Source: a virus. From it: a stretch of DNA of 39,419 nt. The stretch covers positions 1-39,419 of the IMG/VR virus record IMGVR_UViG_3300035670_000565; one strand, 5' to 3'. Of this stretch, positions 22,147 to 31,353 are shown piece by piece. Both the position numbers and the translations under genes were made by a program. The notes beneath the pieces are model-generated. The model saw nothing but the letters and a program-made list of their open reading frames with translations. It made no database searches and had not been told where the DNA came from. How positions within the stretch are numbered: the first letter of the stretch is position 1; each line of letters starts with the position of its first letter.

Positions 22147-22275
22147 ATGAGCTTAATAGATAAATCTAATAACAACAAATTAGCTGCTGAGTGGGCTTAT
22201 ATAGATGGTAGAGAATATTATGATGTTGCTGTTTCAAGACTTTATTATAGCTTATTTCAAAATTCCCGTTTTTAA
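22147..22275 (+). pseudogene. HEPN-like gene fragment cut by IS110 remnant
   Basis: The first 38 codons read MSLIDKSNNNKLAAEWAYI..YYDVAVSRLYYSLFQ, resembling the N-terminal helix pair of small HEPN-domain proteins (the YYxxFQ signature after an N-rich helix). At 22263 the sequence enters the truncated IS110 copy and the frame ends after NSRF. The C-terminal part, where HEPN RNases carry their R-x4-6-H site, is missing. The start ATG has no strong ribosome binding site beyond GGGCTGG. It is inferred to be the former toxin of the locus; the family assignment from 38 residues is moderate. Confidence 0.6.
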
Positions 22276-22572
22276 AGCAAGCAACAATTACATTTTTGTG
22301 TACATCTATCCCACAACAACACCTATAAACAATTTCCATAGTAAATCTCCTTTATATTTTAGGTTTATGGTGCGCCCCTGTCAAAATAGCTACATTGCTA
22401 TACGTCTTTTAAAGACAATTCGTGGTTCTGCAACAGGGGCTATTTCAAATTGCGAGTCGACCTCTATGTGACAATGACATTCGAACTCGTACCATATGTT
22501 AATTATGCCACAATAGCTACTGGGACACAAGTGGGATTCGTTTATTGTGGTGTGGAACACGTGATTAATTGC
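22263..22572 (-). mobile_element. Truncated IS110-family copy (LE remnant, tandem)
   Basis: This 310-bp stretch appears identical to 23845-24154. It holds the left-end noncoding region and only the first about 25 transposase codons (start codon at 22339, minus strand). It directly precedes the right end of the full copy, giving an LE-RE junction like that of a circular or tandem IS110 form. The break at 22263 lies between the HEPN fragment and transposase sequence, so a deletion removed the rest of the first copy together with most of the HEPN gene. Confidence 0.8.
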
Positions 22573-22703: not shown

Positions 22704-23921
22704 CTAGGCAGTAACTGTAACGGGAAGTTGAACGCCTAATTCTTTTAGCTTTTTCATATAGTAATTGGTTTTTGCATTAACATTGAATTTTGTGTAATAA
22801 TCACTACCTAAATCTTTAAAAGATACGTTGTTTTTCAAAATGTTATATATGGCTATAAGCATTGAGTGAGCTACGGCAACAGTTGCTCTGTTTGCACCTC
22901 GTCTTACAACAATACGCTGGTATTGTGCGTGAAAAAAGCTGGCTTTATTTTTTACAGCTGACTTAGCAGCTTGAATCAGAATACTTTTCAAATGCTTATT
23001 TCCCTTATTTGTTTTTCCATTTCTACGTTTACCGGCACTTTCATTGTTGCCTGGACAAAGTCCTGACCATGATGATAAATGAGCTGCAGTTGGAAAACGA
23101 CTCATGTCCAACCCTATTTCTGAAAGAATTACCTCTGCACTACGTTGAGCTATGCCAGGAAGCTCATCAACTTTTTTAATAGCATCTTCATAATCATTCA
23201 TATGTTTATTGATGATATCATCTAAATCTTTAATGCGTTTAGTCATATCATCTATATGACTTAAGATAGCTCTAACTAGGTGTTTTTGAATATTAGAAAA
23301 TACACCTTCCATTGCTTTAAGCAATTCTGATTTATCAGCCTTCAAAGAAGTATGAATAAAGTTACTGATATTTTCTTCGTTGATTTCTCCTACTAGCGCT
23401 TGCTCAATTAAGTTTCTAGCGCTTACACCGGTAATTTCAGATACAAAAGAACTTAGTTTTATATTCGCACCTTGTAAAGTTTTTTCTAGACGGTTAAGTT
23501 CTCTCGAACGTTCTTCAACTAAACTTTTACGGTAGCGTACTATATCGCGCAACTCTCTTTGTTCTTTATCCGGTATATAACTAGACTTTAGTAAACCATG
23601 TTGTAACAAATCAGCAATCCATTCAGCGTCCTTAACATCTGTTTTTCGACCAGGAACAGTTTTCATATGCTGGGCATTTACCACAATTACACTAAGATCA
23701 TTTAACTCAAAAATATTATATATTGGCTTCCAATAAGAACCTGTGCTTTCCATGGCAATCATTTCGCACTTATTTTCTAGAAGCCATTTAGCAAGTTCTT
23801 TAATACTCCGAGTTACAGTATCAAACTTTCGAAGCTCTGCTTTTTTCCCGTTTTTAAAGCAAGCAACAATTACATTTTTGTGTACATCTATCCCACAACA
23901 ACACCTATAAACAATTTCCAT
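22704..23921 (-). CDS. IS110-family transposase (DEDD recombinase)
   Basis: RNA-guided recombinase of the IS110 family, 405 residues. The N-terminal RuvC-like domain shows the acidic tetrad: D12 in CCCGIDVHKN, E58 in IAMESTGSYW, and D95 and D98 in GRKTDVKDAEWIADLL. A long helical region (about 120-245) is followed by the Transposase_20 domain with VDELPGIAQRSAEVILSEIG and the serine motif NNESAGKRRNGKTNKGN, S295 being the probable nucleophile. All catalytic residues appear intact, so it is likely active. Ribosome binding site AAAGGAGAT precedes the ATG. Confidence 0.93.
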   Translation of the reverse strand: MEIVYRCCCGIDVHKNVIVACFKNGKKAELRKFDTVTRSIKELAKWLLENKCEMIAMESTGSYWKPIYNIFELNDLSVIVVNAQHMKTVPGRKTDVKDAEWIADLLQHGLLKSSYIPDKEQRELRDIVRYRKSLVEERSRELNRLEKTLQGANIKLSSFVSEITGVSARNLIEQALVGEINEENISNFIHTSLKADKSELLKAMEGVFSNIQKHLVRAILSHIDDMTKRIKDLDDIINKHMNDYEDAIKKVDELPGIAQRSAEVILSEIGLDMSRFPTAAHLSSWSGLCPGNNESAGKRRNGKTNKGNKHLKSILIQAAKSAVKNKASFFHAQYQRIVVRRGANRATVAVAHSMLIAIYNILKNNVSFKDLGSDYYTKFNVNAKTNYYMKKLKELGVQLPVTVTA

Positions 23922-24154
23922 AGTAAATCTCCTTTATATTTTAGGTTTATGGTGCGCCCCTGTCAAAATAGCTACATTGCTATACGTCTTTTAAAGACAA
24001 TTCGTGGTTCTGCAACAGGGGCTATTTCAAATTGCGAGTCGACCTCTATGTGACAATGACATTCGAACTCGTACCATATGTTAATTATGCCACAATAGCT
24101 ACTGGGACACAAGTGGGATTCGTTTATTGTGGTGTGGAACACGTGATTAATTGC
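23922..24154 (-). ncRNA. Candidate bridge RNA region of the IS110 element
   Basis: In the IS110 group, a structured bridge RNA is encoded between the left end and the transposase and specifies target and donor DNA. This leader can fold into two separate domains: GCCCCTGT (23956-23963) with ACAGGGGC (24015-24022), enclosing a small GTCTT / AAGAC hairpin, and CCACAATA (24090-24097) with TATTGTGG (24125-24132). The two-stem-loop layout matches the known bridge RNA plan. Exact RNA ends and guide bases cannot be set by eye. Confidence 0.6.
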
Positions 24155-28924: not shown

Positions 28925-29269
28925 ATGAAGTGGAATATTAAATTATATGAAAAAGAAAATGGTAAAATCCCAGTTGAAGAGTTTATGAGTGAACTTCCTG
29001 CAAAACATAAAGAAAAAATTGATAGAACAATAAAACTTTTGAAACAATTTGGAACAGAGTTACCCCAACCACATGCAGAACCTATTGACGGGAAACTATG
29101 GGAGCTTAGAACTAAACTTTCGAGTAACATATCTAGAGTATTTTATTTTCTTACAGTAGGAAATACATTTATATTACTGCATGGATTTACAAAAAAGACA
29201 CAGAAAACACCGCCAAATGAAATAGAAAAAGCAAAAGAATATATGAGAGATTATTTGAGGAGGTGCTGA
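28925..29269 (+). CDS. higB: HigB-like toxin (RelE superfamily, Gp49-like)
   Basis: Probable ribosome-dependent mRNA endonuclease of 114 residues. The pattern VEEFMSELPAKHKEKIDRTIKLLKQFG, then GKLWELRTKLSSNISRVFYFLTVGNTFILLHGFTKKTQKTP, is typical of phage-derived Gp49/HigB toxins. The conserved RVFYF strand, the HGF..K basic stretch and the NEIEKAKEYMRDY helix are all present, so it is probably functional. It precedes its antitoxin by 2 nt, the toxin-first order of higBA. Confidence 0.9.
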   Translation: MKWNIKLYEKENGKIPVEEFMSELPAKHKEKIDRTIKLLKQFGTELPQPHAEPIDGKLWELRTKLSSNISRVFYFLTVGNTFILLHGFTKKTQKTPPNEIEKAKEYMRDYLRRC

Positions 29270-29271
29270 AA

Positions 29272-29610
29272 ATGAACAGAGCAATGGCATTAAAGCAAGA
29301 ATATATTGAAAGTAATATTAAAAAACATGAGCCGTCTATTAAGTGGGAAGAAGTTAGAAAACGACTATTTGACAAAGATCCGGAATTTGAATCGGCAGTT
29401 AATGATTTAGAACCCGAATATGAAATTGTAATGCAAATAATAAAAGCTCGAATAGAACAAAACTTGAGTCAGAAAGAACTTGCAGAAAAAGTAGGAACTA
29501 AGCAGGCACATATTAGTCGGCTTGAAAGTGGAGAATATAATCCTTCTTTAAAATTTTTAAAAAAGATTGCAAAAGGGCTTGGGAAAGAATTGCATATAAC
29601 TTTTAGATAG
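29272..29610 (+). CDS. higA: HigA-like antitoxin (XRE HTH)
   Basis: Antitoxin and autorepressor, 112 residues. The C-terminal half is an XRE helix-turn-helix: RIEQNLSQKELAEKVGTKQAHISRLESGEYNPSLKFLKKIAKGLG. The N-terminal half (SIKWEEVRKRLFDKDPEFESAVNDLEPEYE) is typical of HigA partners of Gp49-like toxins. ATG 29272 follows GAGGAGGTG inside the toxin end; a GTG 9 nt upstream overlaps that site and was rejected. Confidence 0.9.
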   Translation: MNRAMALKQEYIESNIKKHEPSIKWEEVRKRLFDKDPEFESAVNDLEPEYEIVMQIIKARIEQNLSQKELAEKVGTKQAHISRLESGEYNPSLKFLKKIAKGLGKELHITFR

Positions 29611-29664
29611 GATAGAATGGAATTAATATGGATAAAATTTAAACTGCTATATGGAGTTGAGCAT

Positions 29665-30090
29665 ATGGAGAACAGAGATAAACGAACTCTTAACTTAGAT
29701 AAAATTAGAAAAAGAAAGTTTAGTATTATGACTTCCGAAAAAGCTTTGGAAGATGTTGTACCTATTAAGTGGAGTGATGATGTTTTAATGAGCAAGAAAA
29801 AAGTTGATAACTTAGAAATAAACAAATTTAATCCGGTAATTAAATTTGATAAAGATACAAACCAATTTGAAATTATACTGAATGAAGTTAGAGTTTATAG
29901 TGTTGGGGCAACAAAACAGGAAGCAATTGAGGTTATGATTGATTTGCTCATTGATTGTACTATTGATTATTTTGAGAATGTAGAGCATTATATGAGAATT
30001 CCTGAGAAATCTAGTCAATTTCCGTTTTATTTGCGAATTAGGCATTGTAAAACATCAGATGAAATGTTAAGGATTTTGAATTTAGTATAG
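29665..30090 (+). CDS. Hypothetical protein downstream of higBA, antitoxin-like domain
   Basis: A 141-residue protein. The C-terminal 75 residues (VRVYSVGATKQEAIEVMIDLLIDCTIDYFENVEHYMRIP, then PFYLRIRHCKTSDEMLRIL) resemble the dimerising C-terminal domain found in some antitoxins of the type often annotated as toxin-antitoxin stability proteins. The N-terminus is basic. The start is uncertain: ATG 29665 has GGAG 8 nt before it, while ATG 29617 would add 16 unusual hydrophobic residues. It may be a third component of the TA operon or a separate gene. Confidence 0.55.
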   Translation: MENRDKRTLNLDKIRKRKFSIMTSEKALEDVVPIKWSDDVLMSKKKVDNLEINKFNPVIKFDKDTNQFEIILNEVRVYSVGATKQEAIEVMIDLLIDCTIDYFENVEHYMRIPEKSSQFPFYLRIRHCKTSDEMLRILNLV

Positions 30091-30644: not shown

Positions 30645-30771
30645 GTTTCTAAAGCTTCTAAATTAAAGGTAAAATTTGAATCATAAAATAATGACAAAAA
30701 TGAGTTACTAATATATAATGCAAAAGGGAAGCCATTCTCGAATTAATCTATAATACATGCGTGGGAGAAAT

Positions 30772-31173
30772 ATGGATATTAATAAGCCACTGAATGAACA
30801 AACTAGCGAAACTCAAATAGTAGGATATTTAAGACAGGATATAATTGATATACTTTGTATCTCTCTTCCATCTATTGAAATATTAATGTATCCTGGTGCT
30901 ATTAAACATATGAAAAAGAGACCTAAAGATTTTGAGAATTATTTTCAAAGAATACCTGAAATTATAAGTGAACCTGATTATATAGGTATTCATCCCAAAG
31001 AACCCAATAGCGTTGAGCTTGTAAAGTATTTTGATAACAATGTTCTCGTTGCTATAAAGTTAGATCCTAGTGGGTATTTATATTTGTCTACGATGTTTGA
31101 ACTTTCACCAAGTAAAGTTCCAAAACGATTAAAAAGTGGTAGACTTATTCCAGCGCCAAAATTATCTACTTGA
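30772..31173 (+). CDS. PBECR-like RNase-fold protein
   Basis: A 133-residue protein that resembles the phage Barnase-EndoU-ColicinE5/RelE-like (PBECR) nuclease domain. The visible pattern is EILMYPGAIKHMKKRPKDFENYFQRIPEIISEPDYIGIHP, with the family's His-x3-R, then VELVKYFDNNVLVAIKLDPSGYLYLSTMFE and the final basic KVPKRLKSGR. Such domains act as toxins or as RNases carried by phages and mobile elements. ATG 30772 is preceded by GGGAG; ATG 30757 is an alternative. No adjacent protein antitoxin is evident, but a structured small RNA follows at once. Confidence 0.65.
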   Translation: MDINKPLNEQTSETQIVGYLRQDIIDILCISLPSIEILMYPGAIKHMKKRPKDFENYFQRIPEIISEPDYIGIHPKEPNSVELVKYFDNNVLVAIKLDPSGYLYLSTMFELSPSKVPKRLKSGRLIPAPKLST

Positions 31174-31198
31174 AAAAAAGTGATTTTAGGTGTATAAT
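31170..31198 (+). promoter_or_regulatory. Near-consensus promoter of a small RNA
   Basis: TTGAAA (31170-31175), a 17-nt spacer, perfect TATAAT (31193-31198). The -35 box overlaps the stop codon of the PBECR gene. Transcription should start near 31205, directly into the structured region, with no protein-coding gene behind it on this strand. Confidence 0.8.
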
Positions 31199-31204
31199 AT
31201 AAAT

Positions 31205-31345
31205 ATAAAGAGAATAATATTGTATGGATTGTTGAGGATCGGAAAGGTTCCCGACACGCTATCCAAAAGATAGTTACCAGGTATGCAGGAAGAGCCACCC
31301 TGCCATCAATCCAAACGTTAAGCCCCCAAGTATTTGGGGGCTTAA
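31205..31345 (+). ncRNA. Free-standing structured small RNA, unassigned
   Basis: A transcript of about 140 nt is predicted from the strong promoter to the GC-rich end hairpin. Structure seen by eye: a 7-bp closing stem TGGATTG (31225-31231) with CAATCCA (31307-31313). Inside it lie TCGG / CCGA (31239-31242 / 31251-31254), CTATC / GATAG (31259-31263 / 31269-31273) and GCAGG / CCTGC (31285-31289 / 31299-31303). The end hairpin (31318-31329 with 31334-31345) has 12 bp. No reading frame of note. I do not recognise an Rfam class. It could be an RNA antitoxin, a regulatory RNA, or a phage decoy. Confidence 0.6.
31318..31345. terminator. GC-rich hairpin between sRNA and convergent gene
   Basis: TTAAGCCCCCAA pairs fully with TTGGGGGCTTAA around a 4-nt loop. 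There is no U-run on either side, so intrinsic termination would be imperfect, but as a stem it would give a stable RNA 3' end for the small RNA and separate it from the convergent gene ending at 31354. Confidence 0.6.
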
Positions 31346-31353
31346 AAGTTAAC

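Follow-up and report, generated by a model that had tools for sequence, protein, structure and literature searches.

Skipping-rope RNAs lie directly after PBECR RNase-fold genes of phages and plasmids and may form a type III-like toxin-antitoxin module with them

An RNase-type protein encoded beside a structured RNA is the common feature of the type III toxin-antitoxin systems ToxIN, CptIN and TenpIN and of AbiF-RCd22; the ToxIN RNA is a pseudoknot, and AbiF-RCd22 is phage-borne (PMC12373285). The PBECR2 and PBECR3 domains (PF18810 and PF18812) have been described in solo and MuF-fused phage forms, with a His and Ser/Thr pair as the active site, and no RNA partner is mentioned in the passages on PBECR of that account (PMC5512222). 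For the MuF polymorphic toxins of temperate phages, protection has been proposed to come from small immunity proteins (PMC5576092). In this study, we analysed a locus in which a PBECR3 gene is followed by a single structured RNA.

The window is the full virus record IMGVR_UViG_3300035670_000565, 39,419 bases in length. It carries phage genes (terminase, portal, capsid, lysis, serine recombinase, tyrosine-integrase-like and toxin-antitoxin-like genes), and the PBECR3 gene and its RNA are flanked by a recombinase gene on one side and a repressor-like gene on the other. A toxin-antitoxin-like cluster lies upstream at 28925-30090, with a RelE-like Gp49 protein (PF05973), an HTH protein and a PHD_like antitoxin protein (PF12910). 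Elsewhere in the window, a perfect 300-nt direct repeat (22263-22562 and 23845-24144, spacing 1582 nt) brackets an IS110-family transposase gene (22704-23921, - strand), and this arrangement looks like a full IS110 element accompanied by an incomplete tandem duplicate of its non-coding end. The features of the locus are as follows.

30691-30719, + strand: putative sigma-70-like promoter of the PBECR gene, ATGACA-17-TATAAT, inferred from a consensus scan (11/12)
30772-31173, + strand: PBECR3 RNase-fold gene, candidate toxin (PF18812 match, AlphaFold model, conserved His and Ser/Thr)
31170-31198, + strand: RNA promoter TTGAAA-17-TATAAT, which overlaps the PBECR stop (consensus scan 11/12; same position in homologues)
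31227-31311, + strand: skipping-rope RNA core with closing stem, hairpins 1-3 and kissing loops 1 and 3, candidate RNA antitoxin (RF02924, own model, covariation)
31318-31345, + strand: 12-bp end hairpin, likely the 3' end of the RNA or a terminator (fold and scan; weak U run)

The PBECR gene product has 133 amino acids from an ATG preceded by GGGAG, within a longer open reading frame that begins at 30757. It matched PF18812 (PBECR3) at 9.3e-25 with 87.2 bits, above the curated Pfam cut-off of 30; only PBECR families, and no ToxN, CptN or TenpN family, were returned by Pfam for this protein, and PADLOC gave no match for it. His47 in the N-terminal helix and Thr108 in a late strand (numbered from base 30769) are located where the PBECR catalytic residues are expected, and among homologues the His was conserved in 37/41 and the Ser/Thr in 40/41. 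The AlphaFold model had a pLDDT of 89.7. Foldseek found viral MuF C-terminal proteins, and with the PDB alone it found nothing at E 0.001 or better; re-alignment to solved structures placed the tRNase domain of colicin D first (Z 7.2, 86 residues, 2.8 Å), with the BrnT and RelE toxins within the top eight. Such matches at Z of about 7 are middling and only suggestive. The inhibitor of colicin D is a protein. A sequence search of solved structures gave no PBECR homologue. Judged by its sequence, the protein is a member of PBECR3, and the residues, the model and the fold match all agree with a BECR fold.

The RNA matched the skipping-rope family RF02924 at 31227-31311 (+ strand) in a cmscan search against Rfam, with 55.1 bits against a gathering cut-off of 36.7 (E 1.1e-12 on the local stretch) and with the model covered end to end, from 1 to 80 of 80; our own covariance model gave 75.4 bits. 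The window RNA is a member of RF02924, sharing the family's closing stem, its three hairpins and its loop-loop pseudoknot and showing no structural difference, and the class that the first-pass annotation of the window had not recognised is thus a known one. The family is reportedly due to Weinberg et al. in 2017. Because no function is given for it in the papers searched, membership of a known RNA family does not refute the idea that the RNA acts together with the RNase gene. Blastn of the RNA against phage records returned no similar sequence.

The structure that had been drawn for the RNA, namely a closing stem, three inner hairpins and a 12-bp end hairpin, was borne out by the fold of 31206-31350, which reached -48 kcal/mol against -30.0 ± 3.4 for shuffles (z = -5.25), and by covariation. 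In an alignment of 67 homologous RNAs on our own model, loop-loop pairs included, 87.3% of cells were paired and 21 of 26 pairs were changed on both sides, and the covariation score was 0.505 compared with 0.176 when shuffled and at most 0.10 when slid. The RNA was also rightly described as lacking coding potential, since the open frames that cross it look incidental. The earlier drawing had missed the pairing between the loops of hairpins 1 and 3 (GGUUC with GAGCC in the window RNA), a pseudoknot already drawn for skipping-rope in the Rfam account (PMC7779021). Own loop partners scored 413, compared with 354 ± 10 when partners were shuffled, and 0/2000 shuffles were as high, a significance that is overstated because related RNA sequences are not independent. 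Both the conserved helices of RF02924 and its pseudoknot were thus found in the window RNA by covariation and partner shuffling. The clearest support for kissing loops comes from the divergent RNAs beside PBECR2-type genes, in which the helix is rewritten yet complementary (CGUGGC/GCCACG, GCGUC/GACGC, CGUCCG/CGGACG, CGUCCC/GGGACG and CGUAC/GUACG).

The near-consensus promoter that overlaps the PBECR stop, likewise described at first pass, agrees with 11/12 consensus positions. On its own it is not beyond chance in this A+T-rich stretch, where 5 such matches were found and 4.9 expected; it recurs directly before the RNA in homologues, with a mean of 9.5/12 versus 6.5 in mononucleotide-shuffled flanks and a score of at least 9 in 51/66. 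The end hairpin at 31318-31345 has no canonical U run on the + strand, and the scan calls a terminator there only on the - strand; in most homologues, a hairpin with a T run behind it is present at that place. The median gap from PBECR stop to RNA was 55 nt (n = 50). Gene and RNA are on the same strand in 47/50 loci, and in the three convergent ones (L013, L056 and L081) the RNA is still at the 3' end of the PBECR gene. The plasmid pTA1060 of B. subtilis carries a natural pair with gene and RNA on opposite strands. The RNA is single and downstream in the window and usually single elsewhere, and five loci carry two RNAs in tandem (L037/L168, L136, L184, L134 and L183); those of L037 are of different subtypes and apparently share one promoter.

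Searches led by the protein covered phages, plasmids, viral contigs and 398 Bacillota genomes. At 55 of 56 testable PBECR2/3 loci the RNA came just after the gene, at the remaining locus a transposase gene stands in between, and no intact PBECR without the RNA was found among the testable loci; the effective number is below 56 because some loci are near-duplicates (L033/L034; L043, L046 and L049). The linkage spans Bacillota, Fusobacteriota, Spirochaetota and a PBECR fused to a phage head (MuF) protein. Tblastn relatives of the window protein were located in streptococcal prophages and on plasmids of Bacillus, Priestia, Brevibacillus, Sporosarcina, Macrococcus, Enterococcus, Fusobacterium and Treponema, and the RNA was adjacent at 9/9 testable phage and plasmid loci, a tenth record stopping at the gene. 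Profile searches found 13 loci in genome contigs, with the RNA in 12/12 testable ones (L031 is a truncated gene whose contig ends soon after), and 20 in viral contigs, with the RNA in 16/16 testable ones, the other four ending at the stop codon. One further phage, of faecal origin, encoded a longer protein with a PBECR-like domain at its C-terminus, and the RNA was present (1/1). Some of these searches used profiles seeded from RNA-linked loci, and the first tblastn searches did not. A 13-sequence PBECR alignment was too divergent to serve as a query, and a single-protein PBECR pattern search of the viral contigs gave no matches.

In the 398 Bacillota genomes, with the centre left out, 18 PBECR places were found in 16 genomes, and the RNA was no more than 190 nt away in 17/18, compared with 0.0003 adjacencies expected by chance among 18 places. 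At the eighteenth (G377) the RNA is 1.9 kb off, behind a UPF0236/ISL3-like transposase gene. The RNA of G343 is divergent, and our own model alone detected it (E 2e-4 in 347 kb), but its position, its promoter and its kissing helix are as expected. At the genome level, the RNA was present in 16/16 PBECR genomes versus 12/381 others (Fisher P 2e-21). Distances among RNAs and among proteins were correlated with a Mantel r of 0.83, against a highest value of 0.31 in 2000 permutations, and shared descent of a co-inherited pair explains part of this signal. The co-occurrence strongly supports the initial suggestion that RNase gene and RNA belong together. As a rule that they always occur together, it stands when read from the gene and not when read from the RNA, which is often alone.

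PBECR was adjacent to 16 of 29 sampled Bacillota RNA loci, behind a transposase in 1/29 and missing from 12/29. No PBECR was found elsewhere in the genomes of those 12 loci, some of which may be incomplete, and one of the 12, L073, has only 208 nt before the RNA. In viral contigs retrieved solely through RNA patterns, PBECR was present at 18 of 61 loci with room and absent at 43; here the RNA is commoner alone than paired and may therefore have a wider function. The RNA is also intact beside frame-shifted, broken or truncated PBECR genes (L028, L029, L054, L064, L070 and L081). PBECR depends on the RNA and not vice versa, as would be expected of a harmful protein with a protective RNA.

A single alternative partner family for the solitary RNAs was considered and rejected, as the neighbours were varied and included an Abi_2, a PemK-like and a reverse transcriptase gene in one instance each. 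In L163 (2340-2419, - strand), the RNA starts 3 nt past an Abi_2 gene (PF07751), and PBECR is absent from the neighbourhood. We take AbiF proteins to be relatives of Abi_2. AbiF proteins pair with RNAs (PMC12373285). In L180 (3912-3983, - strand), a viral contig, the RNA lies 23 nt past a reverse transcriptase gene (PF00078). Other RNA families were also found on such elements, namely Bacillus-plasmid RNA (L013 3577-3632), lactis-plasmid RNA (L018 809-916), a twister-P1 ribozyme just under cut-off (L036 4291-4359) and FuFi-1 RNA (L040 1247-1426).

The first-pass annotation was reminded of type III toxin-antitoxin systems, and as an analogy this holds. Type III systems have tandem RNA repeats upstream in the toxin transcript and a toxin of the ToxN, CptN or TenpN family, whereas the window RNA is single, lies downstream and has its own promoter, most homologous loci carry one copy, and the protein is BECR-fold and not ToxN-like. 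By layout and protein family the locus is not a member, and its working would be like that of type III by analogy only. The MuF toxins offer a second comparison: in L065 (3-1609), a phage MuF head protein carries PBECR2 as a C-terminal fusion, and the neighbour, 31 nt downstream, is a variant skipping-rope RNA instead of an immunity protein gene.

Considering these results, our preferred explanation, with a probability of about 0.6, is that gene and RNA form a type III-like module, for toxin-antitoxin function or immunity, whose RNA acts by binding to PBECR and blocking this RNase. This view draws on the identity and structure of the RNA, its near-obligate linkage and co-variation with the protein, and the predicted fold and active-site residues of the latter. 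We have proposed a plausible model, in which PBECR would be an endoribonuclease and the toxin, and the free-standing skipping-rope RNA the antitoxin or immunity RNA, of a mobile two-part module. The RNA, transcribed from its own strong promoter, would take up a compact closed-stem fold with hairpins 1 and 3 kissing, bind PBECR directly and block its active site, perhaps by serving as a decoy that resembles a substrate. Loss, destruction or absence of the RNA, for example on plasmid or prophage loss or infection by another phage, would free the nuclease and presumably make it toxic; alternatively, the trigger could be delivery of the PBECR domain, as part of a MuF head protein, into a cell that has just been infected. 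Solitary RNAs would be leftover or counter-toxin immunity genes.

The RNA has an 8-bp closing stem and, in 67/67, a 2-nt linker; its outer arms are about 5 bp long, the last linker has 0 nt, so that the third arm abuts the closing stem, and the outer loops kiss. The resemblance to a tRNA cloverleaf is one of topology only. Identity as a tRNA was rejected, as ARAGORN found none in the window and RF00005 gave no match to the RNA, whether in the window region (E 1) or in three homologue loci (E 10). The cloverleaf-like layout and a tRNase as the nearest solved fold make a tRNA-like decoy attractive, and such a mechanism would be plausible. More tentatively, and at less than even odds, skipping-rope RNAs at large might be widespread tRNA-decoy-like antidotes to PBECR RNases, forming a new kind of RNA-neutralised phage and plasmid toxin module that includes immunity to MuF-delivered toxins, with solitary copies immunising phages and hosts.

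A free-standing RNA with its own promoter, found without PBECR in 43/61 viral loci with varied neighbours and in 12/29 Bacillota loci, might also be an independent trans-acting phage or host RNA, a counter-defence RNA or tRNA-like decoy with cellular targets, on which PBECR later came to depend or with which it shares a pathway, without direct inhibition. We regard this as unlikely, since PBECR is practically never found without a directly adjacent RNA and the two co-vary. The near-obligate pairing and matched subtypes would also fit a ribonucleoprotein in which the RNA does not inhibit the nuclease but serves it as cofactor, guide or natural substrate, and Iyer et al., in their treatment of PBECR, proposed specific small RNAs as targets of some members (PMC5512222). 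That reading leaves the retention of the RNA beside broken or absent PBECR unexplained, and no variable guide-like segment is apparent in the RNA alignment, so we hold it to be quite unlikely.

Two readings confined to the transcript appear very improbable. Were the RNA an antisense or type I regulator silencing PBECR mRNA, as an adjacent RNA gene with its own promoter and the three convergent loci would allow, complementarity to the toxin mRNA would be expected; the RNA was no more complementary to its own PBECR mRNA than to those of other loci (residual -0.94 and -0.67 kcal/mol, t = -1.7 and -1.3), which disfavours a type I toxin-antitoxin system, and a conserved tertiary fold is unexpected for antisense RNA. 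The short gap and mostly shared strand could likewise mean that the RNA is no more than a structured 3' UTR, or a terminator, in which the PBECR transcript ends, a view just as improbable given the separate promoter before the RNA, the separate terminator after it, the opposite-strand cases and the many solitary RNAs.

Skipping-rope RNA, with its pseudoknot, and the PBECR families had been described before. The partnership of PBECR with skipping-rope RNA appears to be new: no report of the link was found in the open papers searched, including those that name the family. To our knowledge, no inhibitor is known for the widespread PBECR family of predicted phage RNases. Our analysis proposes a partner for that family and a first concrete, testable function for an Rfam RNA class present in several phyla and many phages. 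If the preferred module is right, a BECR-fold, RNA-neutralised system would join the small set of RNA-controlled protein toxins, and this suggests that some MuF-type phage toxins would have RNA, and not protein, immunity.
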